Below are positions 50 to 16,916 of a stretch of 18,290 nt of DNA, one piece after another (position 1 is the stretch's first letter; each line of letters opens with the position of its first letter). Source of the DNA: a bacterium. Lineage in GTDB: Bacteria > T1Sed10-126. The notes beneath the pieces are model-generated. The model did no database searches. It had not been told where the DNA came from and saw only the letters and a program-made list of their open reading frames with translations. Made by a program: the position numbers and the translations under genes. Location of the stretch: contig PWHN01000113.1 in the NCBI GenBank assembly GCA_003554945.1, forward strand, positions 1 to 18,290, given 5' to 3'.

Positions 50-1480
50 TTAATAATCGGAATCGGAGGTTTCGCCGGAAACAATGGCAACTCCAGCGCT
101 AGCGCCAATCCGGGAAGCTCCGGCAGCAATCATGTCGATAGCTTCCTCGAAGTTATGCACTCCACCGCTGGCCTTAACCCCCATCTCCTCGCCGACAACG
201 CGGCGCATGAGAGCGATATCGTTCATCTTGGCACCACCGGGGCCAAAACCGGTGGAAGTTTTAACAAAATCAGCACCGGCCTCCTTACAGATGCGTGAAG
301 CCTCCGCCTTCTGACTGTCGGAAAGCATACCGGTCTCCATGATGACTTTCAAAACGCGGTTGCCGGTCGCTTCTTTAACAGCGGCAATATCGCGGAGGAC
401 AAAGTCGTAATCACCCTCCTTGAGAGCGCCAATATTTAAAACCATGTCAATTTCATCAGCACCGTTGGCAATCGCTTCACGTGTCTCCTGGACCTTGGTA
501 GCGGTCGTCGTCGCACCGAGGGGAAAACCAATTACTGTACAGACTCGAACATCGGTCCCCTTGAGCAGTTCATTACAGAGACTGACCCAGGCGGGATTAA
601 CACAGACGGAAGCAAAACCGTATTCTTTGGCCTCTTTACAGAGCTGTACTATCTCATCGCGGGTGGCGTCGGGGTTGAGAAGTGTATGGTCGATATAGCC
701 GGCGACTTCCTGTTTAACGTCACGAACTCCAATAGTGGTTGAGAGACGCATGCCCTCGGCTTCAAGGACGGCTCCACAGCCTTCGTCGCCAGAAGCAATA
801 CTAACCCGGGGTTCTCCCGTGTCAGCGGTCTTCTCGCGACTGACGTTAACTTCGGTCAACTGGCCGGAGTCAACAGTTTCACGCAGCAGTTCATAAGAAA
901 GTTCGTGCAGAGGTGCGGTCTGCAGGCCGAGATTGGTTGCTTCGGCGAGCTTCTGCTCGTATTTATCCCTTATCCGGGCGTTTTTCATCGTAACCCCGCC
1001 ATCTTCGGGGACAAGCACGGTTTTACCCTGGCTAAGTGCTTCCACGGCCAGCCGGCCGGAGAGATCGTCACCTTCCATGGAATTGATCTGGTTCAATACG
1101 TCCATAGAAAGGGAAGGAATTAGAACACCTTCACAGCGGGAGACGAGACTGAAACAGCCCTGTTCGGGAAGCCCTGCCTCGTAAATTTCATCGACCGCCG
1201 GCAGATTCTTAAAACGCCGGCGCCAGTCTGAGTCGAGAGACTCGGAGAGGACAAGATCGATGACAACACCGCGTTCAGCAAGTTTTTTAAGCTGTTTTTC
1301 AACTTCGCTCAACTCGACAGCATCCGTGAGCAGCAGGACCAGAACGCGCTGTGTTGAAGCAGCGGCGCTGTCGCCCGGAACAGCAGGTTTCGCGGCGGAA
1401 CCGGCTGAGCTCTGTTCGCGGTTTTCAAGCTCATTTACCACCTGTTGAGTTATTTGTTTAATCAAATCCTTGTTAGCCAA
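50..1480 (-). CDS. deoC: Deoxyribose-5-phosphate aldolase (DERA) fused to targeting helix and flavoprotein-like domain
   Basis: Cleaves 2-deoxyribose 5-phosphate to acetaldehyde and glyceraldehyde 3-phosphate; here it probably acts inside a microcompartment. The DERA domain is about residues 255-470, with the Schiff-base lysine K407 in VKTSTGFG, the second active-site lysine K436 in VKASGGV, and the conserved Asp of EIDMVLNIG (D345). Ordinary DeoC is about 220-260 residues; this protein has 476. Residues 3-22 form an amphipathic helix like BMC encapsulation peptides, followed by an Ala/Ser/Pro linker (24-43). Residues 45-205 look like a Rossmann-type flavoprotein domain ([32 protein letters not shown]). 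The start is TTG, 5 nt after a perfect AAGGAGG. It follows the nucleoside transporter by 90 nt and is the last complete gene before the window edge. DERA activity is well supported; the role of the middle domain is inferred. Confidence 0.93.
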
Positions 1481-1570
1481 GGTAAATCCTCCTTATAAAT
1501 CAATAGTTATGTTTGTCATGTATTTTTGCGACCAATTCATCAGTAATCAGTGATCGGTTACATTTAATTT

Positions 1571-3409
1571 TTAGCCCAGGGTTACCAGGTCAATGCCTAA
1601 CTGATTGGCAATACCGATCATTATGCCGGCGACAGTGGCCGTCTGGTAAGAGGCCAGGGTGCCGGCAAACATAGTTTTTAAACCAAGTTGAGCCAGGTCT
1701 TCCTCACGGTTGGGAGCCAGCCCACCAATTCCACCGATCTGGATAGCAATGGAGCTGAAATTGGCAAAGCCACAGAGGGCGTAACTGAGCATAATAACGC
1801 TGCGAGGGGTCAACACTTCGATGGCTGCCTCATACTCAAGGAAGGCAACAAATTCATTGATAGCCATCTTGGTGCCGATAACCCAGCCAAATTCAACCAG
1901 GTCCTCCCAGGGAACTCCCATGAAGAAAGCAAATATTGAAAATATATAGCCGATAATACGTTCCAGCGTGAGCTCGGCCAGTATTGGTAGAAATTCAACG
2001 TTAAAGAAATAGACAAGTAAAACAGCCAGAAGAGCAACCAGGACGGAGACGGCAATCATTTTGACAAGTACGGCCGTGGTTGGGTTCTTCCAGAACCAGT
2101 AAGAAGATATTAAAAGAACACTAAAGCCGGCAAAAAGCCCGGCGCCGGCGATATGGGAGGCGGTGCCACCGACAAGATAAGTAATGAGACCAAAGAGAAG
2201 GACAAACAAGAGCTGAAAAATTAACGATTTAACAAGCAATTTAAGATTGTCCAGACAGAGGTAATATGAAATCGCCAGACCGCCCAGCAGACCAGCAGCA
2301 AAACCAAACTGAGCGACAATCGTATAAGGAATTACCTCAAGCACCAGAACATAGACAGCGAAGGGAAGCAGGAAGATGAGCAGGAGAACGGAAATCCATT
2401 TTTTTGTGAGTGTCTCCCGCCAGCCCCAGCGGCCGATATAAAATATCCCGAGGACGCTTCCGAAAACAGCTCCCGGCCAGAAAGAAGCAAGTCCACGAAC
2501 TTCGGTAATCAAGGTATGTAGACGGGTGCTGGCCAGACTAATCAGATGATTGCCAAGGTAGACAAGAGCAATGAAGGCAAGCAGCATGGCTCCTACATTC
2601 AAGGCCAGAGAAAGACCGGTTTTGGCCCCTTTGGCAGCGGCATCGATAAGGTTGGTCCCCTGCTCCTCAACGTCTACCCGAATTTCACCGCGTGTTTTCG
2701 GTATATCTTTCTCGGGGTAAACAAGTTTTGACATAACAATGGCGGCGGGCGCGGACATGACACTGGCAGTGATCAGGTGACCGGCGATAGCGGGAAAGAT
2801 TCCGCTCAACATACCGACGTAAGCAGCCATGACACCACCGGCGACAGTAGCAAAACCACCGGTCATAACGGTAGCCAGCTCGGATTTTGTCATTGTGCGC
2901 ACAAAAGGTTTGATGACCAGCGGCGCCTCGGTCTGACCGACAAAAATGTTAGAACTTACCGAGAGGGTTTCAGCGCCACTTGTGCCAAGCAGTTTCATCA
3001 TTATCCAGGCGATAAACTCGACCACCTTGCGCATGATACCGGTGAAGTAAAGAACAGCCATGAAGGAGGAAAAGAAAATTATTGTTGGCAGAACAGAAAA
3101 GGCAAATGTAGCACCGCGTTCAAAGCGGGAATCAGCAAGAACAGAGAGGTCGGAATCAACAAGTCGCCCGAAGAGAAAGGCGGCACCTTCGTTGGAAAAT
3201 TCAAGCAACCCTACAATAACGTCGTTTAACACCTGAAACAACTGCTGGCCGGGTTGAGTGAGCATAACCAGTGCTCCAAGAATTAGCTGAATACCGAGAC
3301 CGACAAGGACGGTTTTCCACATGACTTTATCCTTATCGGGGGAAAGCAACCAGGCGAAGAACGGCATGAAAAATAGTCCACTTATACCAACAAAAAATTC
3401 AATTCCCAT
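1571..3409 (-). CDS. NupC/CNT-family concentrative nucleoside transporter with extra membrane segment
   Basis: Cation-coupled nucleoside importer of the inner membrane. CNT hallmarks are present: GQTEAPLVIKPFV (158-170), the HLITASVMSAPAA segment, GVPWED (498-503), NEFVAFLEY (518-526) and SYALCGFANFSSIAIQIGG (542-560). Typical bacterial CNTs have about 400 residues; this one has 612. The surplus lies between the LNVGAMLLAF helix (270-279) and ELTLERIIGYIF (479-490), which are only about 30 residues apart in ordinary members. The insert (about 300-475) is strongly hydrophobic and could add five or six helices. ATG start with GGAGG upstream. Its place next to the aldolase suggests it feeds (deoxy)nucleosides to the microcompartment pathway; substrate specificity cannot be read from sequence alone. 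Confidence 0.92.
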   Translation of the reverse strand: MGIEFFVGISGLFFMPFFAWLLSPDKDKVMWKTVLVGLGIQLILGALVMLTQPGQQLFQVLNDVIVGLLEFSNEGAAFLFGRLVDSDLSVLADSRFERGATFAFSVLPTIIFFSSFMAVLYFTGIMRKVVEFIAWIMMKLLGTSGAETLSVSSNIFVGQTEAPLVIKPFVRTMTKSELATVMTGGFATVAGGVMAAYVGMLSGIFPAIAGHLITASVMSAPAAIVMSKLVYPEKDIPKTRGEIRVDVEEQGTNLIDAAAKGAKTGLSLALNVGAMLLAFIALVYLGNHLISLASTRLHTLITEVRGLASFWPGAVFGSVLGIFYIGRWGWRETLTKKWISVLLLIFLLPFAVYVLVLEVIPYTIVAQFGFAAGLLGGLAISYYLCLDNLKLLVKSLIFQLLFVLLFGLITYLVGGTASHIAGAGLFAGFSVLLISSYWFWKNPTTAVLVKMIAVSVLVALLAVLLVYFFNVEFLPILAELTLERIIGYIFSIFAFFMGVPWEDLVEFGWVIGTKMAINEFVAFLEYEAAIEVLTPRSVIMLSYALCGFANFSSIAIQIGGIGGLAPNREEDLAQLGLKTMFAGTLASYQTATVAGIMIGIANQLGIDLVTLG

Positions 3410-3429
3410 AGCTGTGCCTCCAGAAATTT

Positions 3430-3458
3430 AATTTATGGACCCGGCTGAACACGGACAA
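3430..3458 (-). promoter_or_regulatory. weak candidate promoter for the transporter-aldolase pair
   Basis: On the minus strand TTGTCC (3453-3458) and TAAATT (3430-3435) are spaced by 17 nt just upstream of the transporter start. Both hexamers match the sigma-70 consensus at 4 of 6 positions, and the leader would be only about 15-20 nt, so the call is tentative. A separate promoter here would make sense because 470 bp of repeats separate this pair from rpiB. Confidence 0.25.
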
Positions 3459-3578
3459 ACTTAGATTTTAATTTTAAAAAACAAAAAACCCTATTGTTTT
3501 GTACTAACGCTCTGCTTGAAAAGTGTGTTGACCAGTCCCGGTAACCGGGGAAGATTACTGAATGATAACCGTTTAAAA

Positions 3579-3790
3579 TTCAAGATGGATTCCGGCTCGG
3601 AGGCCGGAATGACGAACGTTAGGTCAAGTTCACAAGTTCAAGTTCCCCCCTCACCTTTATCCTCTTCCTCGGTGGGGAGAGCTCGACGAGGCGAGCTTGC
3701 GAACAGGCGAAGAGGCGAAAGACCAAAAGTCAAGGTCAAGTTCAAGATGGATTCCGGCTCGGAGGCCGGAATGACGAACGTTAGATCAAG
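3579..3790. repeat. composite dispersed repeat: two hairpin copies around a second hairpin module
   Basis: A 43-bp identical sequence occurs at 3579-3621 and 3741-3783, and the similarity runs on to 3628 and 3790 with one mismatch. Each copy has the stem ATTCCGGC / GCCGGAAT around the loop TCGGAG, preceded by TTCAAGATGG and followed by GACGAACGTTA. Between them, 3643-3681 is a second module beginning TTCCCCCCTCACC with a CTCTTCC / GGGGAGAG stem, linked by runs of GTCAAG/TTCAAG-type hexamers. A diverged composite with the same module order is at 6848-6968. No protein is supported here. The rest of the 3410-3879 gap holds only AT-rich sequence and a GTGTTTATCCGTGT-type phrase near 3851-3873. 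Confidence 0.85.
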
Positions 3791-3879
3791 CGACCACTAA
3801 ATCAGATAGAATTAAAAAAGTTAGTTCATTTATCAGTTTTTACATCAGCGGTTATCTGTGTTTATCCGTGTCCTCTATA

Positions 3880-4323
3880 TTACTCGAGGTCGAGCTGGTT
3901 AATTTTGTCGACGCGGCGCTGATGCCGGCCACCGGCGAAGGGAGTCTCCAGCCAGAGATCAACCAGCTTAACGGCCCTGTTCTCGCCCATCTGCTCGGCG
4001 CCAAGAACGAGCATGTTGCTGTTGTTGTGTTCCCGGCTACTGCGTGTTGTAAACTCGTTAGTGGGCGAAGTCGCCCGAACACCGGCAACTTTGTTACCAA
4101 CTATGGCGGAAGCAATACCGGTGGTATCGACCATGATAGCGCGGTCAAAACCATCGCCGGCAACTCCTTCGGCGACCAGGCGGGCATAATCCGGGTAATC
4201 ACAGGATTCTTCGCTGTAAGTTCCGAAGTCCACGACCTGGTGTGAAGTTTCACGGTCAAGGTGATTTTTGATCGTCTCCTTAAGCGGAAAGCCACCGTGG
4301 TCGGCGCCAAGAGCAATTTTCAT
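3880..4323 (-). CDS. RpiB/LacAB-family sugar-phosphate isomerase with altered active-site Cys
   Basis: The family interconverts ribose 5-phosphate and ribulose 5-phosphate or related sugar phosphates. Its 147 residues are the family's usual length. Conserved elements: D8-H9 in GADHGG, SxExxDYPDYA (37-47), NKVAGVRA (77-84), H99 in SREHNNSN, and phosphate-binding arginines in GGRHQRRV (131-138). The loop that carries the catalytic cysteine in E. coli RpiB (Cys66, ICGTG) reads VDTTG here, so position 66 is Asp and the following Gly is Thr. Some family members (mycobacterial type) use a different base, so it may still be active, perhaps on another sugar phosphate. It starts 17 nt after the small membrane protein. 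RpiB-like proteins are a marker of SPU-type BMC loci, so I place it in that pathway. Membership in the family is sure; the exact reaction is not. Confidence 0.88.
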   Translation of the reverse strand: MKIALGADHGGFPLKETIKNHLDRETSHQVVDFGTYSEESCDYPDYARLVAEGVAGDGFDRAIMVDTTGIASAIVGNKVAGVRATSPTNEFTTRSSREHNNSNMLVLGAEQMGENRAVKLVDLWLETPFAGGRHQRRVDKINQLDLE

Positions 4324-4340
4324 TTTGATATTACCTCAGA

Positions 4341-4637
4341 TCAAGAATTACTTTTCTTCTTTTGTTGCCGGTAGTTCCGGACAGAAACAAGCAGCCAGGC
4401 CATCATGGGAACAATTAGCAAAAAGACTATAATCCCTGTGACCCATAGGGACTGTATCCAGGTCAACCAACCACCGGTAAAGACACCGCCGGCAAAGAGT
4501 GTTGCGCCAACGATCATCTTCATGCCCCAGAGCAAGCGGCGGTACTGCCAGCGACTGCGTGTTTCAGCAGTCATTTTATCCAGCACCTGCTGGCGGTAGT
4601 CGGGATCATCCCGCAAACGGTCAGCGTCGTACTTCAC
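4341..4637 (-). CDS. small two-helix membrane protein of the BMC operon, unknown function
   Basis: I do not recognise this family. With a GTG start at 4637 it has 98 residues: a charged N-terminus (DADRLRDDPDYRQQVLDKM) that looks helical and cytosolic, two hydrophobic segments at about 39-60 and 64-86, and a basic tail ending QQKKKSNS. An alternative TTG start at 4670 would add 11 residues and overlap the dehydrogenase end by 8 nt, but has no ribosome site; the GTG has GGGGG about 7 nt upstream. It sits between the aldehyde dehydrogenase and rpiB with very short gaps, so it is surely co-transcribed. A membrane partner of the transporter or an anchor for the compartment are both possible guesses. 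Confidence 0.75.
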   Translation of the reverse strand: MKYDADRLRDDPDYRQQVLDKMTAETRSRWQYRRLLWGMKMIVGATLFAGGVFTGGWLTWIQSLWVTGIIVFLLIVPMMAWLLVSVRNYRQQKKKSNS

Positions 4638-4662
4638 TTTTGAGCCCCCGACCGGTCCCGAT

Positions 4663-6159
4663 TCAAACAATGCGGAAGTAGTCTACCAGAGCACAACGGC
4701 GGCGACGAACAAAAGTGCGTGCCGAAGTGATGCCTTCACCCGTTGGTGTGGTAATAGTCATTGATGTCCAGCCCTCACCGTCGTGTCCCATACCGTTGAG
4801 ATTACTGCCATTTTTAACAAAAATACTGGTATTAACCTCGACCGCCATGCGATGCATGTTCTCGATATTGCGGGAGTGAATAACGGCAGAGTGCTGACAG
4901 CCGTCTTCAAGTTCAACCGCCAGGTCAATAGCCCGATCGACGTTAGAAACCGTCACAAGTGGGACTACCGGCATAAGCTGTTCAACCCGGGCGAAAGGAT
5001 GATCAGGGCCAGTTTGGGGTACAAGCAGGCGAGTATCGTCAGGAACGGAAAAGCCCGCTTCCGAAGCGATATAAGCTGCATTCTGACCGACCCAATCGGT
5101 ATCAACCGACGGATTAGTGCCGGGATAACCCTCAAAGACCAGTCGAGCGACGGCTTCAGTCTGCTCCTCGTCAATACTGTGGGCACCGCTCTGTTCGAGA
5201 TGATAAAGCAGATCGTCGGCAATAGCTTCAACAGCGATGATCTCCTTTTCACAGGTACACATGACGTTGTTGTCAAAGCTGGCACCTTCAACAATCTTCT
5301 CGGCAGCGCGGGGAATGTCCGCAGTTTCATCAACAACAACGGGCGGATTACCAGGCCCGGCACCGAGAACACGTTTCGGAGCCTTCATCGCTTCCTCCAC
5401 CACTGCCTCACCACCGGTAACAGAAAGCAAGGGAATGTCTTCGTGATAGAAAATTTCCTGCGCTGTCTCCAGGGTGGGTTCAGAAATGATGGTTAGCAGA
5501 TCCGAAGGTCCACCAACTTCCTGTATGACACGATTCATGTGATGAATAGCGTCAACACAGACCTTTTTGGCGGCCGGATGCGGATTGAAGACAACAGCGT
5601 TACCGGCTGCTATCATGCTGAGGCTGTTGTTGACCATCGTCGCTCCCGGATTTGTGGAAGGGGTGATCGAGCCAATTACGCCCCAGGGAGCAAACTCCTC
5701 GAGTGTGAGGCCATGATCACCGGTAGTTACTTCGGGTTCAATGTCCTCCACGCCAGGCGTTTTGTTAGCGACAAGCGTGATCTTTGCTTCCTTGTCGTCA
5801 GCTCGACCAAAACCGGTCTCATCAACAGCCATTCTCCCCCACTCGGCTGCCTTATCACGAGCAAGCTGACGGATAGCCTCAACAATTCGCTTGCGAGTGG
5901 AGTAATTACCCTGACCACGGAACTGGCTGTAAGCCAGTTTTGCGGCATCAACGGCCCGGCTAACGTCCTCGTATGCACCCAGCTTACCACCGCGTGCGGG
6001 TGAACCGCTACCAGAAGTTCTGGATCGTGACGGAGAAATATCCGGACGACCGGCAGAACCAATAGTGGTTCGCCCTGAAGTAGTAGAAAAATCAGAACCG
6101 TTGACCTCATCCACCACTTCGCTGACTATCGAACGTAGTTCACTTTCTTCCTCTCTCAT
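4663..6159 (-). CDS. CoA-acylating aldehyde dehydrogenase, PduP/EutE type, with encapsulation peptide
   Basis: Oxidises an aldehyde (here most likely acetaldehyde from the DeoC reaction) with NAD+ and CoA to the acyl-CoA inside the BMC lumen. Family features: TPSTNPGATMVNNS (167-180), SVTGG (246-250), the nucleotide-site GAGPGNPPVVVD (266-277), the catalytic cysteine C301 in FDNNVMCTCEKE, and the C-terminal RTFVRRRRC stretch typical of PduP. The N-terminus (about 4-19, LRSIVSEVVDEV) is an amphipathic helix joined by a long Ser/Gly/Arg linker (21-58) to the catalytic domain at about 60, the usual layout of a cargo enzyme. 498 residues, ATG with GGAGGG upstream. It follows the shell gene by 49 nt. 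Confidence 0.95.
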   Translation of the reverse strand: MREEESELRSIVSEVVDEVNGSDFSTTSGRTTIGSAGRPDISPSRSRTSGSGSPARGGKLGAYEDVSRAVDAAKLAYSQFRGQGNYSTRKRIVEAIRQLARDKAAEWGRMAVDETGFGRADDKEAKITLVANKTPGVEDIEPEVTTGDHGLTLEEFAPWGVIGSITPSTNPGATMVNNSLSMIAAGNAVVFNPHPAAKKVCVDAIHHMNRVIQEVGGPSDLLTIISEPTLETAQEIFYHEDIPLLSVTGGEAVVEEAMKAPKRVLGAGPGNPPVVVDETADIPRAAEKIVEGASFDNNVMCTCEKEIIAVEAIADDLLYHLEQSGAHSIDEEQTEAVARLVFEGYPGTNPSVDTDWVGQNAAYIASEAGFSVPDDTRLLVPQTGPDHPFARVEQLMPVVPLVTVSNVDRAIDLAVELEDGCQHSAVIHSRNIENMHRMAVEVNTSIFVKNGSNLNGMGHDGEGWTSMTITTPTGEGITSARTFVRRRRCALVDYFRIV

Positions 6160-6208
6160 CAGAATATTCCCTCCTGCCTTTCAGTAGAATGGATATTGCG
6201 AAGTTAAA

Positions 6209-6496
6209 TTACTCTACTTCGCCTTCCAGGGCAATCGGGAATACATCCTCAAGTTCAGCGTGTGGACGTGGGATTACATGAACAGCAACCAGTTCGCCAA
6301 CTTTTTCAGCAGCGGCGGCACCGGCATCAGTTGCGGCCTTACAGGCGGCAACATCACCACGAACCATTGAGGTAACGTAACCTGCACCAATTTTTTCCTG
6401 TGCAACCAACTTCACCTTGGCAGCTTTGACCATAGCGTCGGACGCTTCGATCAGAGCGACAAGGCCTCGAGTCTCTATCATACCTAATGCTTCCAT
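6209..6496 (-). CDS. BMC-H hexameric shell protein, PduA/EutM type
   Basis: Single BMC-domain protein of 95 residues that forms the flat hexamers of a microcompartment facet. Sequence is close to PduA/EutM throughout: [21 protein letters not shown] at the start, [15 protein letters not shown] (35-49) at the pore, [14 protein letters not shown] and the AVHVIPRPH strand (71-79). The pore loop reads KIGAG where PduA has KIGSG, so the pore-lining Ser40 of PduA corresponds to Ala38; the pore may be less polar. Perfect AAGGAGG (6507-6513) upstream of the ATG. It is the only shell gene in the window, so pentamer and trimer shell genes must lie elsewhere. It opens the gene run to rpiB and has its own candidate promoter. 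Confidence 0.96.
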
Positions 6497-6556
6497 GAAC
6501 TACGAAACCTCCTTAAAAAAATAAGTTTGTTAATTTGCCTAATTACTGCGTATAGA

Positions 6557-6585
6557 ATAATAATAAAACTTTGCTTTGTCCACAA
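6557..6585 (-). promoter_or_regulatory. candidate sigma-70 promoter for shell-dehydrogenase-rpiB genes
   Basis: On the minus strand TTGTGG (6580-6585) and TATTAT (6557-6562) are separated by 17 nt, in an AT-rich stretch about 60 nt upstream of the shell protein start. The -10 matches consensus at 5 of 6 positions. A promoter is expected here because about 500 bp of repeats separate the shell gene from eutJ. Confidence 0.4.
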
Positions 6586-6700
6586 GTTTCTTACACGCCG
6601 GTAAATCGGCTGTTTGGGGCCTTCTTCGCCGTTTTTAATCGAACGTGTTAAAGAGAGGTCAGGGGAAAGCGACAGTAATACTGTTTTTGAAGAGGTAAGA

Positions 6701-6752
6701 GTGGGAAAGTGTGAAAGTTGGAAAGTGGGAAAGTGTGAAAGTTGGAAAGTGG
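6701..6752. repeat. 24-bp tandem repeat, two full copies plus a partial
   Basis: The unit GTGGGAAAGTGTGAAAGTTGGAAA occurs at 6701-6724 and, identically, at 6725-6748, followed by a GTGG start of a third. It continues to about 6805 as degenerate GGGAAACCG-like units. The purine-rich strand is the plus strand. An open frame runs through it on the minus strand and would encode Ser/His/Phe/Pro-rich repeats, but this is low-complexity translation rather than a gene. Confidence 0.85.
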
Positions 6753-6847
6753 AAAACCGGGAAACCGTAAACCGGAAAAATGGGAAACCGGAGAGCGGGA
6801 ACCGGTGATCGTAACATCGGAAGAACAAGGTCAAAACCACGGTCAAG

Positions 6848-6968
6848 TTCAAGATGGATTGCGGGTCGGAGCCCGCAATGACGGGCGGTAGGTCAAAGGC
6901 AAATTCAAAATCAAGATCAAAATCAAATTCCCCCCTCACCTTTTTCCTCTCCCTCGACGGGGAGAGGA
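6848..6968. repeat. composite dispersed repeat, second locus (two hairpin modules)
   Basis: Same module order as the element at 3579-3681: TTCAAGATGG, an 8-bp stem (ATTGCGGG 6858-6865 / CCCGCAAT 6872-6879) around the invariant loop TCGGAG, GACG, a run of TCAAAATCAAG-like hexamers, then TTCCCCCCTCACC and a 9-bp stem TCCTCTCCC (6945-6953) / GGGAGAGGA (6960-6968). Compared with the other locus, the first stem is changed on both sides so pairing is kept. Neither hairpin is followed by a T-tract on the minus strand, so they are not ordinary terminators. Together with the 24-bp tandem repeat it fills the 500-bp gap between eutJ and the shell gene. Confidence 0.85.
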
Positions 6969-6999
6969 GATAAATCAAGAGCGAGGCGGTGGGTGTGGG

Positions 7000-7872
7000 T
7001 TAGGTTGTATTGAGATTATTCAGGCCGGAGCAGGCGATGCCCAGGGGCGTTATCAGAATCGGGTTTGGAGGTTTGATGACGGTACGGTTTAGAACATCGG
7101 CGAAAATATCCTCCATCCCCTCAGGAATTACTGTGCCCCCAACAAGATAAACTTCTTCGACTTCGGGATAGGCCGTTATCTCCGTCTGAACAATGCTCGC
7201 CATTTTTTCTACGACCGGCTGAACAATACCCCGATAAGCGGAGAATGATTCGTTAAGTTTGAACTTTTCCGCCTGGTCATAAGTAAGACCACGGTTGCCG
7301 GCGATAGTCAATGTAAGGTGATGACCGCCGGTCGGTTCGTCGGCCGAGTGAACTATTTCACCTTTTTTCATAACCGAAATACCGGTAGTTCCACCACCAA
7401 TATCGACTATTATTCCCTTCTCTATTTCAAGTGCAGCGGCGGCTGCCGTCGGTTCGTCGGTTTCAGCAATTATTTCAAATTGACAGTCTTTAACAACGTT
7501 CGACTCCACCCAGGCCTCAGTCCCGGGGGGATAGCCAACAGCAGCATAATCAAGGCTAACCCCCTCGCCTAATTTTTGCTCGAACTCATTTTTAAATTGC
7601 ATGACTTTCTGGCGAGCGCCGTTGTAATCAAGTACGATTCCGTCACGGACGGACTCGTCCCAACAGAAACCGGCCAGCACAGGCTGAGCGGCCGAATCGA
7701 GCACGATAACCTGAATGTTAGAAGTGCCAAGATCAACACCGGCGACCAGGGGCGGTTCAAAGTTCTCCACCAGGTCACCCGTTTTTTGCAGCTGGCTGGT
7801 AAATTCCAGACGTTCGCGAACGGCTTCAAAAGTAAGCTCGTCCGCCGGTCTATCATCGACTTTCACAACCAA
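7000..7872 (-). CDS. eutJ: EutJ-like actin-fold ATPase/chaperone of microcompartments
   Basis: 290-residue protein of the DnaK/actin-like ATPase fold, as in EutJ of ethanolamine microcompartments (about 280 residues), which is thought to help assembly or cofactor handling of lumen enzymes. Visible nucleotide-binding motifs: phosphate-1 loop VAGVDLGTSNIQVIVLD (43-59), DEPTAAAAAL (about 139-148), phosphate-2 loop IIVDIGGGTTGISV (155-168), and YLVGGTVIPEG near the end. No peptide-binding DnaK C-terminal domain is present. The first start in frame is TTG at 7872; the nearest GGAG is 12 nt upstream, so initiation may be weak. It follows the CapA-like gene by only 35 nt, so it can be transcribed from the polysaccharide operon, while 500 bp of repeats separate it from the shell gene. 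Confidence 0.9.
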   Translation of the reverse strand: MVVKVDDRPADELTFEAVRERLEFTSQLQKTGDLVENFEPPLVAGVDLGTSNIQVIVLDSAAQPVLAGFCWDESVRDGIVLDYNGARQKVMQFKNEFEQKLGEGVSLDYAAVGYPPGTEAWVESNVVKDCQFEIIAETDEPTAAAAALEIEKGIIVDIGGGTTGISVMKKGEIVHSADEPTGGHHLTLTIAGNRGLTYDQAEKFKLNESFSAYRGIVQPVVEKMASIVQTEITAYPEVEEVYLVGGTVIPEGMEDIFADVLNRTVIKPPNPILITPLGIACSGLNNLNTT

Positions 7873-7907: not shown

Positions 7908-9020
7908 TTAGTGCCGCCGGCCGGGGTTTGAGCCCGTGAGGGTGACAGGGTCTTCATAAACCATATTAATTTCCGTATCATCCCAGGCCTCATATCTTTT
8001 TTCATCGTAAGCTAAATAATATCTTAACTCGGCAAAATTTTGGAACGTTTTTACAACTTGAGTGCGATAATTTACCTGGTAATTATTAACGTTGATAAGA
8101 TGATAGCCGGCAATTTCCACACCAGCGTCCGACAATTTTACCCGGGGGATTAAGCCGTATTGGACGTTATCGGTCAGGGTGGTAAAAAAGTAGTTACCAA
8201 GACTATAAAAGATAACCCCGTCCCCATACCTCTCCACGGGCTGTAGAACGTGCGGATGATGGCCAAAGACTACGTCTGCCCCGGCATCAATGGAAGCCCG
8301 TCCTAAATCTTTTTGATACTGGCGGGGCAGTTTGTAAAGCTCCCGGCCCCAGTGAAAAGAAACGATCACATGATCGGCGACAGAAGCCGCATCAGCAACC
8401 TGCTGCCGGACCCTATCTTTTTCGCCGAAAGCTGTCCCCGCTGTTTTTTCCGTAGCCCAAAAATCGGAGGGATAGGTGTTGGAAAAGGCAAGAAAGGCCA
8501 GTTTGCGACCCTTGCGTTCAAAAAATACAGGGCGTTCGGCGAGGGCACGATTGGGGCCGGCGCCGGCGTATTTTATTCCGGAATGGTCCAACCAGCTTAC
8601 GGTGGAAAAGAGTCCCTCTACCCCATAATCCAGTATATGGTTGTTGGCCAGGCTAACACCATCGACGCCCAGTTCTTTCAACAGAGGTAAAGTCAGGTCG
8701 GGTTTCTGCTTCAAGTGGTGCTGTTTATCGAGCCATTTGTCGGCGTCTTCTACTATGGGCGCCTCGAGGTTAACCAATTTTAAATCGACGGGATCCAGCT
8801 CCGAAATGACATCCTCGACCAGGTAAGACGCTCCGTGGGTATCGACCAGATCGGCGACGCGGTCGTCAAAAAAGACGTCGCCGGCCATCAATACGCTCAA
8901 GGGCTCAGCTCCGGCGACGAGCTCCTCCTCGATCTCATCGGCCTGGTGAAGAAGGTAAACAGAAAAAGCCAGAGCAAAGAGCAGCAGACCAACAAGGAGA
9001 TAGCCGGAGCGGCGGTTCAT
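7908..9020 (-). CDS. CapA/PgsA-like poly-gamma-glutamate capsule-type protein (membrane-anchored metallophosphatase fold)
   Basis: 370 residues. An N-terminal anchor (6-24) is followed by an outside-facing domain of the CapA family, a calcineurin-like fold. Conserved blocks: MAGDVFFDD (45-53), LVNLEAPI (82-89), SLANNHILDYG (123-133), SFHWGREL (221-228), FGHHPHVLQPVE (252-263) and FYSLGNYFF (271-279). In Bacillus, CapA/PgsA is needed for poly-gamma-glutamate export, but many homologues sit in unrelated polysaccharide loci, and no CapB/CapC partners are seen here. The ATG overlaps the stop of the preceding glycosyltransferase gene (ATGA), so the two are translationally coupled. The family is clear; its role here is inferred from the operon. 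Confidence 0.9.
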   Translation of the reverse strand: MNRRSGYLLVGLLLFALAFSVYLLHQADEIEEELVAGAEPLSVLMAGDVFFDDRVADLVDTHGASYLVEDVISELDPVDLKLVNLEAPIVEDADKWLDKQHHLKQKPDLTLPLLKELGVDGVSLANNHILDYGVEGLFSTVSWLDHSGIKYAGAGPNRALAERPVFFERKGRKLAFLAFSNTYPSDFWATEKTAGTAFGEKDRVRQQVADAASVADHVIVSFHWGRELYKLPRQYQKDLGRASIDAGADVVFGHHPHVLQPVERYGDGVIFYSLGNYFFTTLTDNVQYGLIPRVKLSDAGVEIAGYHLINVNNYQVNYRTQVVKTFQNFAELRYYLAYDEKRYEAWDDTEINMVYEDPVTLTGSNPGRRH

Positions 9021-10069
9021 TTTTGATCACGCTGTCTGTCGGGAAGCTGGCTGCTATATTCGAGCAGAACAATGATGGCAAAAACAGCGCCCCCATGAAG
9101 TAAAAGCAAAAGTGCGTCAGCGAGGTTAACCCGGGTAAGGAATACGGCAAGGATACCGACTGTGAAGGCGACGAGATAAATAATAAGGACGGCGGCACGC
9201 CGGCTGAGACCAAGTTCAACCAGCCGGTGAGAGAAGTGGCGGTTGTCGGCTTCCCAGACCGGACGGCCTTCAAGAATACGAATTATCATAACTGAAGCGG
9301 TATCAAAGAGAGGAACGGAGAAAATTAAAATCGGTGTAATTATGGGCAGGTGCTGAAGACGGGAGTATTGCAAATAATGGGCGGAAACTGCAAGAGAACC
9401 GAGAAAAAAACCGATAAAACCACTGCCGGCATCGCCTAAAAATAGTTCCGAGGGATCAAAATTAAAACGAAGGAAAGCAAGCAGAGAACCAACTAAGACA
9501 GAGGTCATGACGGCAGTATGACCGTCCTGCTGACGAAAAGCAATCATACTGAAAATCAAGGCACAAATAGCAGCAACGCCGCTGGTCAGACCGTCCATGT
9601 TATCAAGCATGTTAAAGCTGTTGGTAATACCGACAATCCAGATTATCGTAAGCAGGTAGGTTATTATATTTTCACCCAAAAATAGATCGATGGAGACGCC
9701 GTGAATTACAACAATCAGGGCCGCTCCAATCTGGACAATAAATTTAGGGGCGGGAGAAATTTCCTTAAAATCATCTACAAGACCCATAACGAATATAAGT
9801 GTTGAGCCAAGGAAAATGCCCTGCAATTCAAGTGACCAGGGAACAATCCCCTGATAGGCGGTCAGGCCAAGCGTCAACCAGACGGAGACAAAAACGGCCA
9901 GACCACCAAGCAGCGGCGTCGCTTCTTCATGCGCTTTGTGACCGCCGGGAACGTCGAGCAGTCCCAGATGGCGGGATAAAAATTTACAGAGCGGCACCAT
10001 TAAGTAACACAATCCGAAACTGAACAGACTTAAGAGAAAGAACAACCAGCCGTTTAAGGGCACATTCAC
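9017..10069 (-). CDS. WecA/MraY-like undecaprenyl-phosphate sugar-1-phosphate transferase (glycosyltransferase 4 family)
   Basis: Polytopic membrane enzyme of 350 residues that moves a HexNAc-1-phosphate from a UDP-sugar to a polyprenyl phosphate, starting a polysaccharide repeat unit. Family motifs: the Mg2+-binding GLVDDFKE (97-104), NSFNMLDNMDGL (150-161), ELFLGDAGSGFIG (208-220) and the basic DNRHFSHRL cytosolic loop, which in WecA-type enzymes helps bind UDP-HexNAc. About ten hydrophobic segments are visible. The GTG start overlaps the stop of the dehydrogenase (GTGA). MraY proper is normally in a cell-division cluster and lacks this context, so a WecA/TagO-like role in surface glycan or teichoic-type polymers is preferred. 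Confidence 0.93.
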   Translation of the reverse strand: MNVPLNGWLFFLLSLFSFGLCYLMVPLCKFLSRHLGLLDVPGGHKAHEEATPLLGGLAVFVSVWLTLGLTAYQGIVPWSLELQGIFLGSTLIFVMGLVDDFKEISPAPKFIVQIGAALIVVIHGVSIDLFLGENIITYLLTIIWIVGITNSFNMLDNMDGLTSGVAAICALIFSMIAFRQQDGHTAVMTSVLVGSLLAFLRFNFDPSELFLGDAGSGFIGFFLGSLAVSAHYLQYSRLQHLPIITPILIFSVPLFDTASVMIIRILEGRPVWEADNRHFSHRLVELGLSRRAAVLIIYLVAFTVGILAVFLTRVNLADALLLLLHGGAVFAIIVLLEYSSQLPDRQRDQK

Positions 10070-11370
10070 AGGTGAATCAGCTCCAGATCAGCGGGGATTT
10101 CAAAACCGGCCAGACCGTTGCGGGTATCGATAAGCAGGCTGAACTTAGGGAGTAAGTTATGCCAATCAAAATCGTCGTGGTCGGTAATAATAACGCCGGC
10201 GTCATACTCGTCAGCGATTATTTCAGACTGTTTTTTGGTAGATATTTCCTGTTCAGCGACCTCAAACTGATCGACGTAAGGGTCACAGTATTCAACCTGC
10301 GCCCCGGCGTCAAGTAACTGCTCGATAACATTAAAAGCCGGTGATTCGCGGGTGTCGGATACGCCCGGTTTATAAGCAACACCAAAGATACAGATGCGGG
10401 AGCCATTAACGCTTTTTTTAAACTTGTTCAGACCTTCGGTAATTTTCTTAAAAACATGTCCCGGCATGCCACGATTAATTTCATCAGCGAGCTCTATGAA
10501 GCGGGTTGTCGCATCCTCAAGGTTGGCGCGCCAGGACAAGAAAAGCGGATCAACCGGAATACAGTGCCCCCCCAGTCCGGGCCCGGGGTAAAAGGGCATA
10601 AAACCAAACGGTTTGGTGGCGGCAGCATGAATTACCTCCCAGACATTTATGCCCAGACGATCGCAGATAAGCGCCATTTCGTTAGCGAGACCAATATTTA
10701 TGCTGCGGAAAGTATTCTCCAGCAGTTTTACCATTTCCGCTTCGCGGGGCGAGGAAACGGTAACTACCCGGTCGGCGACCTGGCTGTAGATAAGTTCGGC
10801 AACGCGGGCGGCTTCCTCCGAATAACCACCAATTACCTTGGGTGTGTTGCGGATACCAAACTGCTCGTTACCGGGGTCAATTCGTTCCGGCGAAAAAGCC
10901 AGCAGGAGATCGTCTTCGAGATTCCAGCCTTGTTTTTCAAAAGCTTCAGCGACGACCTCCTCGGTCGTGCCCGGATAAGTTGTACTTTCCAGAATAACGA
11001 GACCGGGCGGCGTAAAATTTTCAGTTATTGTCTCAACGCTGGCTAAAATATAGGATATATCGGGATCGCGTGATTTGCGCAGTGGAGTCGGGACACAGAT
11101 ATGCAGGGTGTCGACGGCCTCCATTCGGCTCATATCGGTTGTTGCTTCCAGATGACCGCTGCCGTTGAATCGCTGTAGTTCCTCCGAATCAACGTCAGAG
11201 ACGGGAGATTGACCGGAGTTTATCTGCTCAACCCGTTCAGAATCAACGTCAAAACCAAGCACCTGAAACCCTTCTCGGGCAAAAGCGACGGCCAGCGGCA
11301 GACCGACGTAACCAAGACCAATTACTCCAACTCGCAACTGCTGTTCGTTAACTTTAGTTTTCCAGTTCAT
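10066..11370 (-). CDS. UDP-N-acetyl-hexosamine 6-dehydrogenase, WbpA/WecC type
   Basis: NAD-dependent four-electron oxidation of a UDP-HexNAc to its uronic acid. 434 residues: Rossmann motif GVIGLGYVGLPLA (15-27), VPTPLRKSRDPD (93-104), the substrate-binding helix LLENTFRSINIGLANEMA (216-233), catalytic C270 in GPGLGGHCIPVDP, and the C-terminal AYKPGVSDTRESPA. The ATKPFGFMPFYPGPG stretch before the active cysteine is typical of WbpA/WecC-like enzymes rather than UDP-glucose dehydrogenase. Next to a WbpP-like 4-epimerase gene, the likely product is UDP-GlcNAc or UDP-GalNAc uronic acid. Coupled to its neighbours by 4-nt overlaps on both sides; GAGGAG precedes the ATG. Confidence 0.94.
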   Translation of the reverse strand: MNWKTKVNEQQLRVGVIGLGYVGLPLAVAFAREGFQVLGFDVDSERVEQINSGQSPVSDVDSEELQRFNGSGHLEATTDMSRMEAVDTLHICVPTPLRKSRDPDISYILASVETITENFTPPGLVILESTTYPGTTEEVVAEAFEKQGWNLEDDLLLAFSPERIDPGNEQFGIRNTPKVIGGYSEEAARVAELIYSQVADRVVTVSSPREAEMVKLLENTFRSINIGLANEMALICDRLGINVWEVIHAAATKPFGFMPFYPGPGLGGHCIPVDPLFLSWRANLEDATTRFIELADEINRGMPGHVFKKITEGLNKFKKSVNGSRICIFGVAYKPGVSDTRESPAFNVIEQLLDAGAQVEYCDPYVDQFEVAEQEISTKKQSEIIADEYDAGVIITDHDDFDWHNLLPKFSLLIDTRNGLAGFEIPADLELIHL

Positions 11371-12341
11371 ATTAACTCCTCATTTGAACGAAAATAATCA
11401 ATTACTCTATCCAGAATAGCACTGGTGTCGTTTTCCGGTTTAAAACCAGTATATTCGTTAATTTTTGAGATATCGGGAGCGCGATGAATCATATCTTCAA
11501 AGCCCTCCTCGTAAGCCTCTTCATAAGGGATGTATTTTATTTCAGAATCACTGCCAACTTTTTTCTTAATTGTTTCGGCCAGTCGCTTGATACTTATCCG
11601 TTTCTCGCCACCAACGTTGAATACCTGGCCAAAGCAGTCGTCATTTTCCATCAAGGCCAGGATGGCACTGACCGCGTCTTTAACATCCATAAAGGCGCGA
11701 GTCTGCTCACCGGTGCCATGCACGGTCAAATCACGCCCGAGGAGGGCCTGTTTCACAAAACGGGGAATAACCATACCATAGCGACCCGTCTGCCGCGGGC
11801 CGACGGTGTTAAAAAATCTGCCAATAACCACGGGGAGCCGTTTTTCACGCCAGAAAGCGAGAGCTAAAAATTCGTCCAGCGCTTTTGTGCAGCTGTAGCT
11901 CCAGCGGGAAATAGTCGTGGAACCGAGTACTCGGTCGTCATCTTCCCGGAAGGGGACGTTTTCATTTTTACCATAAACTTCAGAGGTGGAAGCTAAAAAG
12001 ACAGGTTTCTTGTCCTGGTTGGCGGCGTGCAGGATGTTTTCAGTACCCTGGACATTAACTTCAATTGACTCAAGCGGGTTATCAATAATAAATTTCACGC
12101 CGACAGCGGCAGCCAGATGAAAAATACGATCAGAGTCAGCAACCGCCCGGCGCACCACCGCCTCATCAAGTATAGTATCCAGACGTAATTCGAAATCATC
12201 GCGTCCCTGCAGATGGGATACGTTTTCAAGCCGACCCGTGGAAAGATTGTCAAGGACGATCACCTCGTCCCCTTTTTCCAGTAAACGCTCAGCCAAATGT
12301 GAACCAATAAAACCGGCTCCACCGGTAACAAGACTTTTCAT
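11367..12341 (-). CDS. NAD-dependent nucleotide-sugar epimerase/dehydratase (extended SDR)
   Basis: 324 residues with the ATG start at 12341, which has GGGTGA 6 nt upstream; a GTG 9 nt earlier lacks a ribosome site. Extended SDR pattern: TGGAGFIGSH (6-15), DNLSTGR (31-37), HLAAAVGV (75-82), ASTSEVYG (117-124), catalytic Y149-xxx-K153 in SYSCTK, and RFFNTVGPRQTGRYG. These features are common to UDP-glucose 4-epimerases, UDP-xylose synthases and dTDP/GDP-sugar dehydratases, so the sugar cannot be fixed. First gene of the overlapping four-gene chain, with its own promoter and a hairpin leader. ATGA overlap with the dehydrogenase. Confidence 0.9.
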   Translation of the reverse strand: MKSLVTGGAGFIGSHLAERLLEKGDEVIVLDNLSTGRLENVSHLQGRDDFELRLDTILDEAVVRRAVADSDRIFHLAAAVGVKFIIDNPLESIEVNVQGTENILHAANQDKKPVFLASTSEVYGKNENVPFREDDDRVLGSTTISRWSYSCTKALDEFLALAFWREKRLPVVIGRFFNTVGPRQTGRYGMVIPRFVKQALLGRDLTVHGTGEQTRAFMDVKDAVSAILALMENDDCFGQVFNVGGEKRISIKRLAETIKKKVGSDSEIKYIPYEEAYEEGFEDMIHRAPDISKINEYTGFKPENDTSAILDRVIDYFRSNEELI

Positions 12342-12593: not shown

Positions 12594-13568
12594 TTAAACA
12601 GCCTGGCGAGCTATTTCGCTTTCCTGAATCCACTCCCATTGATTTTTCAATCCCTGCTTCAAATCTGTTTCTGGCGCCCAACCGGTTACGCTACTGATAC
12701 GTTCCGTATCGGCGGCGGTGTGGGGCACGTCACCTTTTCGCTCGCCATCATGTTCAAGCTGCAGTTCACGCCCGGTCACCTCTTCTATGATATCAAACAA
12801 TTCTTTCAGACTGATGCGCGTCCCGCCTCCCACATTGTAGGCGCGACCAAACGCCTCGGAGCGCAAAACCTCAAGGTTAGCGCTTACAGCGTCGCCGACA
12901 TAAGTAAAATCCCTGGTCTGGGAACCGTCGCCAAAGAGCGTTATAGGTTCATCGCGATAGAGCCAGGTTAAAAACCGGGTAAAAGCCATATCCGGACGCT
13001 GACGGGGGCCAAAGACGGTAAAATACCTTAAAGCAGCCACTGAGAGGCCAAAATTCTGTCCATAGAGCAGACCAAGATTTTCGGCCGCCAGCTTTGTCAC
13101 CCCGTAAGGACTGTAAGGTTTTTGACGCATAGTCTCAACCATGGGCAATTCATCTGGAATGCCGTAAACTGAGCTGCTGGAGGCGAGAATCAAGGGGATT
13201 TCGGGATTAATATTTTTTACGGCCTCCAGCAAAATTTGTGTGGATTTAACATTATCGGACAGGTAAATGTCAAATTCGTCACCCCAGCTCTCCCGCACGC
13301 CGGCCTGGGCGGCCTGGTGAAAAACAGCGTCCACTCGGGGAAGCAAGTCTTCATAATCGAGTTCAAGCATATTTTGCCGGATTAATTCAAACTCCTGCTG
13401 CTCCTCCAGACTGGCGAGATTTTCTTTCTTCAACCGGGTGTCGTAGTAATCGCTAAGACGGTCAACCCCAATCACCTGAGCACCTTCAAGAAGCAGACGT
13501 TCGGAGAGATGACTGCCGATAAAACCGGCGGCTCCAGTAACAAGAAAAGTTTTCCCTTTTAATTGCAT
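12594..13568 (-). CDS. UDP-sugar epimerase, UDP-glucuronate 4-epimerase-like (extended SDR)
   Basis: 324 residues from the ATG at 13568; an ATG 18 nt further upstream in frame has no ribosome site, while GGAGG lies upstream of the one chosen, whose A is shared with the preceding stop (TGATG). Motifs: TGAAGFIGSH (11-20), DRLSDYYD, HQAAQAGVR, ASSSSVYG, catalytic YGVTK, and RYFTVFGPRQRPDMAF, the last typical of UDP-glucuronate 4-epimerase relatives. The DYYD and GVRES segments also fit that subfamily. It belongs to a run of two coupled SDR genes, then the palindromic element and promoter before the third. Reaction beyond nucleotide-sugar epimerisation is inferred. Confidence 0.9.
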   Translation of the reverse strand: MQLKGKTFLVTGAAGFIGSHLSERLLLEGAQVIGVDRLSDYYDTRLKKENLASLEEQQEFELIRQNMLELDYEDLLPRVDAVFHQAAQAGVRESWGDEFDIYLSDNVKSTQILLEAVKNINPEIPLILASSSSVYGIPDELPMVETMRQKPYSPYGVTKLAAENLGLLYGQNFGLSVAALRYFTVFGPRQRPDMAFTRFLTWLYRDEPITLFGDGSQTRDFTYVGDAVSANLEVLRSEAFGRAYNVGGGTRISLKELFDIIEEVTGRELQLEHDGERKGDVPHTAADTERISSVTGWAPETDLKQGLKNQWEWIQESEIARQAV

Positions 13569-16066: not shown

Positions 16067-16642
16067 TCAGAAACTCCAGTTAAAACCAATAAAGTGGGTG
16101 ACCGGAAATGAATAAGGCATTCCACGACCGGGCTCCATTTTTATATTAAGCAGTCCCAGCTGGACACCATGAAGTGTTTCGGTCCGATTATAGATACCAA
16201 GCTGGAGACCGGAAATATGATCGGCACTATTAAAGAGTCCCGCCTGAAGACCACGGTGATGACCGTTGGACATGTTAACCAGTCCAAACTGAACGCCGTC
16301 AACATCGCCGTCCGCTTCGTTCATCAAGCTAAGCTGGGCTCCGTCCACCCGACCACCGGCTTTATTGGTTATTCCGCTCTGCAGACCATAAAGATCACCG
16401 CTCAGCTCATTCATTATTCCAAGGTCAAGACCGGATAGATCTTCGTTTACCCCGTAAATGACGTTCAGGCGGACACCTCTTACTGAAAAAGAAGTGTGCG
16501 GATATTGAACAGGGCTGTAAATCGAAAGACCCAGCCAGGACTCATACGTCGCCTCTTCTCCATGACCTGCAGCATACCCTGCCGTCAGAGGTAGAGCTAA
16601 CAGAGATAAAACCAAAATCAAATAACCACATCTTTTAAACAT
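16067..16642 (-). CDS. secreted repeat protein, LA_2272 surface-repeat-like, possible outer-membrane protein
   Basis: 191 residues from ATG 16642 (GGGAGG upstream; a TTG directly before it is less likely). A signal peptide (1-25, ending GYAA) is followed by seven or eight consecutive 14-15-residue repeats from 71 to 168 with the pattern GLQxGLxNxxxGxxx, for example GLDLGIMNELSGDLY, GVQFGLVNMSNGHHR, GLQLGIYNRTETLH. The alternating hydrophobic pattern suggests a stacked or barrel beta structure. The end, FIGFNWSF, finishes on Phe as outer-membrane strands do. It resembles the surface-repeat proteins annotated as LA_2272 family, with unknown function. First gene behind the strong promoter at 16688-16716, 33 nt before the diguanylate cyclase gene. 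Confidence 0.85.
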   Translation of the reverse strand: MFKRCGYLILVLSLLALPLTAGYAAGHGEEATYESWLGLSIYSPVQYPHTSFSVRGVRLNVIYGVNEDLSGLDLGIMNELSGDLYGLQSGITNKAGGRVDGAQLSLMNEADGDVDGVQFGLVNMSNGHHRGLQAGLFNSADHISGLQLGIYNRTETLHGVQLGLLNIKMEPGRGMPYSFPVTHFIGFNWSF

Positions 16643-16687
16643 CAAAATCGCCTCCCAGTAAAAATAATTTGATTTTTTCTAAGTCTG

Positions 16688-16812: not shown

Positions 16813-16916
16813 CCAACGTCATTCCGGGTAAGGGAACATAGTGACCGCAGACCCGGAATCTATGTTAACTTCAAAATGGATTGCGGGTCGGGGCCGGCAA
16901 TGACAGGGTTGTTGGA
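16813..16916. repeat. pair of dispersed hairpin repeats in inverted orientation
   Basis: ATTCCGGGT (16821-16829) / ACCCGGAAT (16851-16859) forms one hairpin with a 21-nt loop; ATTGCGGG (16880-16887) / CCGGCAAT (16894-16901) with loop TCGGGG forms a second one, with one mismatch. The second shares TTCAAAATGGATTGCGGGTCGG with the copies at 3579, 3741 and 6848, and the two are arranged head to head with outer CCAAC / GTTGG ends. They fill the gap between the promoters of the divergent genes; otherwise 16717-16960 shows no gene. Confidence 0.75.

Follow-up and report, generated by a model that had tools for sequence, protein, structure and literature searches.

A predicted nucleoside transporter gene in a candidate SPU-type microcompartment operon, and loss of the catalytic cysteine in the SPU-type RpiB proteins examined

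Sugar-phosphate-utilizing (SPU) bacterial microcompartments (BMCs) are divided into seven subtypes and have been proposed to use DNA degradation products, according to the available parts of PMC4207490 and PMC8217296, which assign ribose-5-phosphate isomerisation to the RpiB-type protein. According to reports, few BMC types are as widespread as SPU, but its substrate was assigned from gene names. Such a locus combines DeoC (pfam01791), an RpiB-type protein (pfam02502), an aldehyde dehydrogenase (AldDh), and shell genes. All of these were found in the stretch of DNA analysed here (the window), which is an entire contig (C37) of 18,290 nucleotides from a genome of 2.2 Mb that is 93.5% complete (G000). 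The SPU/DNA idea is already published (PMC8217296; PMC4207490), and the window locus is a variant of SPU. The gene run, read from its first gene, is composed as follows.

7000-7872, minus strand: EutJ-family ATPase/chaperone-like protein, first in the run (NF011660, 295 bits; cut-off 182)
6497-6999: intergenic gap between eutJ and the BMC-H gene, with one copy of a palindromic repeat of ~64 nt
6209-6496, minus strand: BMC-H shell protein, EutM-like (PF00936, 94 bits; NF012018, 164 bits, cut-off 133)
4663-6159, minus strand: CoA-acylating AldDh of the PduP/EutE type (NF011927, PRK15398, 626 bits; cut-off 403)
4341-4670, minus strand: 109-aa protein with two predicted membrane segments and without a family, overlapping the AldDh gene
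3880-4323, minus strand: RpiB/LacA-like protein (TIGR01120, 143.7 bits, cut-off 138.65; PF02502, 163.9 bits, cut-off 24.7)
3410-3879: intergenic gap of 470 bp between rpiB and the CNT gene, with two copies of the palindromic repeat
1571-3409, minus strand: CNT (NupC-type) nucleoside:cation symporter, 612 aa (PF07662, PF01773, and PF07670 above cut-offs)
50-1480, minus strand: DeoC fusion protein, 476 aa (TIGR00126, 299 bits, cut-off 117; the match covers only residues ~259-467)

The Pfam and NCBIfam models used for these genes matched above their curated cut-offs, with the sole exception of nupC (TIGR00804), for which the window CNT scored 378, under the subfamily cut-off of 442. The earlier note on this DNA had placed BMC-H, EutJ, a PduP-type AldDh, DeoC, an RpiB-like protein, and a CNT in one run, and all of them are there at the coordinates listed above. 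It had overlooked the 109-aa membrane protein and the N-terminal extension of ~250 residues in DeoC. The palindromic repeat, of the GGATTCCGGCTCGGAGGCCGGAATGACG type, occurs at 3564-3627, 3726-3789, 6833-6896, and 16864-16907 of the window. Right of the run lie CapA and exopolysaccharide sugar-nucleotide genes, and an LA_2272-family surface-repeat protein is encoded at 16067-16645 beside a GGDEF protein and exopolysaccharide genes.

The phylum is barely sampled, and two genomes were compared: that of the window and G001, which represents another genus of the same family. The gene order in G001 is CapA-EutJ-BMC-H-AldDh-[99 aa]-RpiB-CNT-DeoC, matching the window, with identities of 97% for BMC-H, 81% for RpiB, 80% for AldDh, ~75% for the DeoC fusion, 72% for CNT, and 64% for EutJ. 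The gene run is not a chance assembly; its order is kept in a second genus. Three of the repeat copies lie within gaps of the BMC operon, and the equivalent gaps in G001 are far shorter (88 bp for rpiB-CNT and 197 bp for eutJ-BMC-H; CNT-deoC is 85 bp). The rpiB-CNT gap has thus grown in the window, but with its place in the order kept in G001, CNT is a fixed member of the run in this family. The G001 contig runs on past deoC into unrelated genes, including ArAE-type and ZIP transporters, and thus the operon ends at deoC. It was considered whether a BMC-P gene is hidden just past base 1 at the contig break of the window. This was rejected: the G001 contig has no shell genes after deoC, and in both genomes BMC-P lies instead beside fxsA/folC. 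When EutJ was used as a query against the genome contigs, no relative was found.

The BMC-H of the window is the only single-domain BMC protein in G000, and the shell genes of this genome are spread over three contigs. A tandem BMC protein (BMC-T) is encoded on contig C95 adjoining a PduS/RnfC-like gene. It scored 133.7 bits against the PduT model, under the cut-off of 250.3, and has a CPGKF motif, which I take to resemble the Fe-S site of PduT. The PduS gene and the PduT-type BMC-T gene form an isolated pair (L007, 8382-10294), surrounded by dnaE and an RNase H-like gene. Three BMC-P genes stand as a triplet next to folC on contig C63, and an equivalent triplet lies beside folC and fxsA on contig C84 of G001. 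The presence of BMC-H and BMC-P in one main locus, which was not found here, is a general criterion rather than an SPU-specific one in the available part of PMC8217296. Genes for purine-nucleoside phosphorylase (PNP), pyrimidine-nucleoside phosphorylase (PyNP), and phosphopentomutase (deoB; 479 bits, cut-off 341) are also encoded in G000. Since the transporter, the phosphorolysis enzymes, deoB, and DeoC are all present, the route from imported deoxynucleoside to acetaldehyde is encoded. A family search of G000 (93.5% complete) did not find PduL, and a search for Pta in the same genome was likewise negative; Pta was found in G001 only, split over two contigs and lacking an EP-like start. With neither PduL nor Pta found in G000, lumenal CoA recycling is the gap in the encoded system. 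The earlier note held that the run has only one shell gene and that the remainder is elsewhere, and the BMC-T and the three BMC-P genes agree with this. Its list of missing parts was largely recovered (BMC-P, BMC-T, PNP, PyNP, and phosphopentomutase), with the exception of PduL. It would have given up its reading if the genome held no more shell genes or phosphorolysis enzymes, and both kinds were found.

Could the scattered genes represent a degenerate or fragmented BMC set, like the FRAG types, that no longer forms closed shells? Shell genes in three places and a BMC-P triplet are features of FRAG types in the available part of PMC8217296. However, every frame is intact, both the dispersal and the sequences are kept in two genera (as seen in BMC-H and in the BMC-P triplet by folC), and signature enzymes, which FRAG types are missing, stand beside a shell gene in the window, so that the locus falls outside the FRAG definition. 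Decay of this sort is very unlikely. The reading that I prefer, with a probability of roughly 70%, is a dispersed SPU-type microcompartment with an operon for the enzymes and the major shell protein, whose fuel would be imported nucleosides, chiefly deoxynucleosides. The CNT would import nucleosides, as its family and conserved motifs suggest; PNP, PyNP, and DeoB, which are present, may carry the flux from deoxynucleosides to 2-deoxyribose-5-phosphate; and a co-encapsulated EutE-type AldDh would trap acetaldehyde as acetyl-CoA. The shell may be built of the EutM-like BMC-H, the BMC-P triplet, and the PduT-type BMC-T, while PduS and PduT, judged from their families, would export electrons from the lumen. 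The transport of deoxynucleosides and the encapsulation of the enzymes are both presumed in this scheme. The nucleosides may derive from DNA, and the locus may be induced by nucleosides.

The window CNT aligns to vcCNT (3tij/4pb1; E~1e-88), and the vcCNT motifs GQTEAP, MGVPW, and ANFSSIAIQIGG are present in the alignment. With NupC domains and the substrate-site motifs of vcCNT, it is probably a genuine CNT nucleoside transporter. Compared with vcCNT, a hydrophobic insertion of ~180 residues (residues ~291-477) lies between the two conserved halves, and the orthologue in G001, with 616 aa, is just as long.

Is a CNT common at BMC loci? The comparison set consisted of 120 other BMC AldDh loci (80 + 40), whose neighbours in the fetched flanks were scored by tblastn. 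Those with DeoC and/or RpiB near AldDh were taken as SPU-like (42 loci, 30 of them with both genes), leaving 78 non-SPU loci. A CNT was found by tblastn in the fetched flanks of none of the 120 loci (0/42 of the SPU-like ones). In a sample of 386 genomes, a CNT relative was present in 96 and a BMC-type AldDh in 70, and no further genome had the two close together among the matches listed. The CNT inside a BMC operon appears to be new, and the transporter link is drawn from two related genomes; a literature search found no paper joining a microcompartment and a nucleoside transporter. Other nucleoside links were found near SPU-like loci. Nup-type ABC permeases lie near 4/42 SPU-like loci and 0/78 other BMC AldDh loci: Sutcliffiella, Bacillus horikoshii, and Paenibacillus N3.4 have Bmp-type ABC systems (PF02608, ABC, and two BPD_transp_2) 3-8 kb upstream, and one more genome has NupP/NupQ-like permeases near its SPU locus. 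The deoB gene is near three of the 42 (Riflebacteria, Muiribacterium, and G119) and none of the 78. On the control side, an EUT-type locus of a Rhodoferax MAG (L114) adjoins deoC, PNP, and PyNP genes; with this control hit counted, the nucleoside links of SPU-like and other loci differ with a Fisher p of 0.0026, which is only indicative, the loci being related.

It is also conceivable that the CNT is a passenger and that the compartment handles acetaldehyde or sugar phosphate of other origin. The absence of a CNT from all other sampled SPU loci would agree with this, as would the resemblance of AldDh, EutJ, and BMC-H to ethanolamine-type systems. On the other hand, rpiB and deoC enclose the CNT gene in two genera, with spacings of 85-90 bp in G001; the operon has no EutBC gene, and its DeoC carries a fused BMC accessory domain. 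Moreover, deoC, CNT, and PNP are also clustered in a genome without BMC genes there (G333; L050, about 8848-12150), where deoC is next to CNT as in the window, although this cluster has no shell genes and its DeoC has neither an EP-like helix nor a flavoprotein domain. A passenger CNT is therefore improbable, and a nucleoside-fed SPU microcompartment is well supported as a reading of the gene content. The earlier note had proposed nucleosides as the fuel from the CNT in the run, and the operon order in G001 and the phosphorolysis genes argue for it. The transporter in the operon, together with the nucleoside permease and phosphopentomutase genes near other SPU loci, makes the DNA-sugar idea directly testable by growth and induction; the carriers of SPU loci include Bacillaceae/Paenibacillaceae isolates of Sutcliffiella, Aquibacillus, Pseudogracilibacillus, and Paenibacillus. 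As a separate observation, triosephosphate isomerase is encoded in 12/42 SPU-like loci and 0/78 others, and it has an N-terminal extension in six Bacillaceae/Paenibacillaceae SPU loci (L140, L142, L143, L164, L167, and L172).

The AldDh was called PduP-like in the earlier note. The PduP/EutE type is confirmed, but its placement has to be corrected. In a quick tree of 105 rows without bootstrap, the AldDhs of the window and G001 fall in a clade of 35 rows with EUT and unassigned rows (SH-aLRT 100), away from the sampled SPU AldDhs. Their companions are EutE of ethanolamine loci and AldDhs of Calditrichota, Desulfobacterota, and Gemmatimonadota loci. The catalytic cysteine column (C300) is invariant. 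Grouping with SPU AldDhs is a subtype feature that lies outside the published SPU definition. The placement suggests that an EUT-like chassis was combined with SPU enzymes, and an EutE-clade position fits acetaldehyde as the probable AldDh substrate.

The DeoC fusion consists of an EP-like helix (~2-26), a flavoprotein-fold domain (~42-205), and the deoxyribose-phosphate aldolase (~256-476); residues 1-255 are not aldolase. The aldolase part matches solved DERAs (E 1e-84) and keeps the Schiff-base lysine region VKTSTGF. AlphaFold2 predicted the helix at residues 2-26 in the N-terminal part, with a mean pLDDT of 73.5 overall and blocks of residues 41-190 between 75 and 92. The predicted fold of the N-domain matches FMN enzymes, the top VIA-align hit being TvaF (Z 17.2), followed by DmrB, CoaBC, EpiD, and UbiX. 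It was revealed by hhalign that the fused domain is related to stand-alone proteins of ~245 aa (probability 99.2, E 9e-20, 215 columns), which sit by BMC-P/AldDh genes in Bacillaceae and other SPU loci. These stand-alone proteins match TIGR02536, an 'ethanolamine utilization' family ('eut_hyp'), weakly and under the cut-off. The TIGR02536 accessory proteins likewise have an N-terminal helix and a flavoprotein-fold core, whereas that of the window is fused to DeoC. G270 encodes an equivalent fusion beside a BMC-P gene. A protein of ~100 aa between AldDh and RpiB in G001 (99 aa) and in the G270/G133 lineage holds only both ends of the stand-alone accessory protein, namely the N-terminal helix and an IITPxA tail; its place is occupied in the window by the 109-aa membrane protein. 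The simplest reading may be that the flavoprotein core moved onto DeoC from the accessory protein. The N-termini of AldDh (an EP-like extension and linker) and DeoC are putative encapsulation peptides (EPs), based on their resemblance to the N-termini of other BMC cargo proteins and on the predicted helix; a hydrophobic-moment test of the putative helices against shuffled controls was not significant (0.07-0.22).

The earlier note took DeoC plus RpiB as the mark of SPU. Both families are present, but the 'RpiB' lacks the catalytic cysteine. The catalytic-site motif is ICGTG or LCGTG in solved RpiBs (3he8, 1o1x, 1nn4, and 2vvr) and VDTTG in the window, where Asp66 stands at the position of Cys65/66 and Ser72 at that of Glu75 of the Mycobacterium tuberculosis (Mtb) enzyme. 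Is this peculiar to the window? Outside the window, aspartate replaces the cysteine in 39/39 SPU-type rows, G001 among them, and in 40/40 with the window (two of the rows, L155 and L191, are identical). The only cysteine row among SPU loci comes from L206, which has a second and divergent paralogue. The cysteine is present in the controls, namely the plasmid-borne RpiBs of Alicyclobacillus, Sinorhizobium, and Rhizobium, and the LacB subunit. The SPU-type RpiBs keep Asp8 (with one exception), His9, Tyr43, Arg133, and Arg137, and also the ring-opening His99, for which the L206 paralogue is the only exception. Hence the family label RpiB fits the window protein, which has His99, Arg133, and Arg137, while the residue that defines RpiB chemistry is absent from its sequence. 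Neither PMC4207490 nor PMC8217296 mentions the Cys-to-Asp change in the available parts, and a literature search found no paper discussing RpiB residues in BMCs. Since the cysteine is lost in every SPU-type case examined, the assumed isomerase job is doubtful; one of the two class-defining SPU enzymes was assigned a reaction that its active site may not perform.

Within the same organelle, the RpiB-like protein might still be an active isomerase with the aspartate as general base, in which case the compartment would also handle the ribose-5-phosphate that ribonucleosides yield, or some other aldose phosphate. One specific residue kept in 40/40 rows implies function, the substrate-binding residues are kept, and MtRpiB can use another acid, Glu75, as the base (PMC3755991). 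However, all SPU-type rows have Ser or Met where the Mtb enzyme has its Glu, and 33 of the 40 tallied have Ala or Val in place of the neighbouring proton-transfer residue Thr67/68. Moreover, LacA, with the same Asp motif, is inactive without the cysteine of LacB. I regard an active isomerase as possible, though doubtful.

LacA, a subunit of galactose-6-phosphate isomerase, shares with the window protein the RpiB fold, a ring-opening histidine, and Asp (IVIDAYGAG) where RpiBs and LacB have Cys, while the two are ~33% identical and the operon has no LacB partner. Neither LacA nor LacB is active on its own, the C65A exchange in LacB makes LacAB inactive, and His96 of LacA serves ring opening (PMC3755991). 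The RpiB-like protein may be such a half-site subunit, which needs a Cys-type RpiB partner for a heteromeric active site. In L206 (G213), Asp-type and Cys-type RpiBs are encoded close together (at 13505 and 14436), as in LacA/LacB, which would favor a heteromer; on the other hand, ~37 other sampled SPU loci and the window operon have the Asp type only. A half-site subunit is rather unlikely.

2-Deoxyribose-5-phosphate has no C2 hydroxyl and cannot be a substrate of an aldose-ketose isomerase. Tentatively, the RpiB-like protein may be no isomerase and may act as a ring-opening half-site that feeds open-chain 2-deoxyribose-5-phosphate to DeoC in the shell; I know of no such catalytic role described for the RpiB family. 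With its proton-transfer cysteine lost, the protein would most likely handle the ring form of the sugar phosphate; instead of isomerising ribose-5-phosphate, it would open the furanose ring or use the aspartate as base on another sugar. More generally, SPU RpiB-like proteins may not be ribose-5-phosphate isomerases and may instead open sugar rings or serve as LacA-like subunits.

Among known systems, the window locus resembles EUT1-type ethanolamine BMCs in its EutM-like BMC-H, EutJ, and EutE-clade AldDh. In contrast to these, it has DeoC, RpiB, and CNT instead of EutBC, with a PduT-type BMC-T and PduS elsewhere; no ORF for EutBC ethanolamine ammonia-lyase was found within the window operon or the G001 operon. 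It differs from described SPU loci in the CNT within the operon, the DeoC-flavoprotein fusion, the EutE-clade AldDh, the BMC-P genes outside the main locus, and the lack of PduL. The Cys-to-Asp change in RpiB, on the other hand, is common to all SPU loci examined, and this loss of the catalytic cysteine is the more surprising result.
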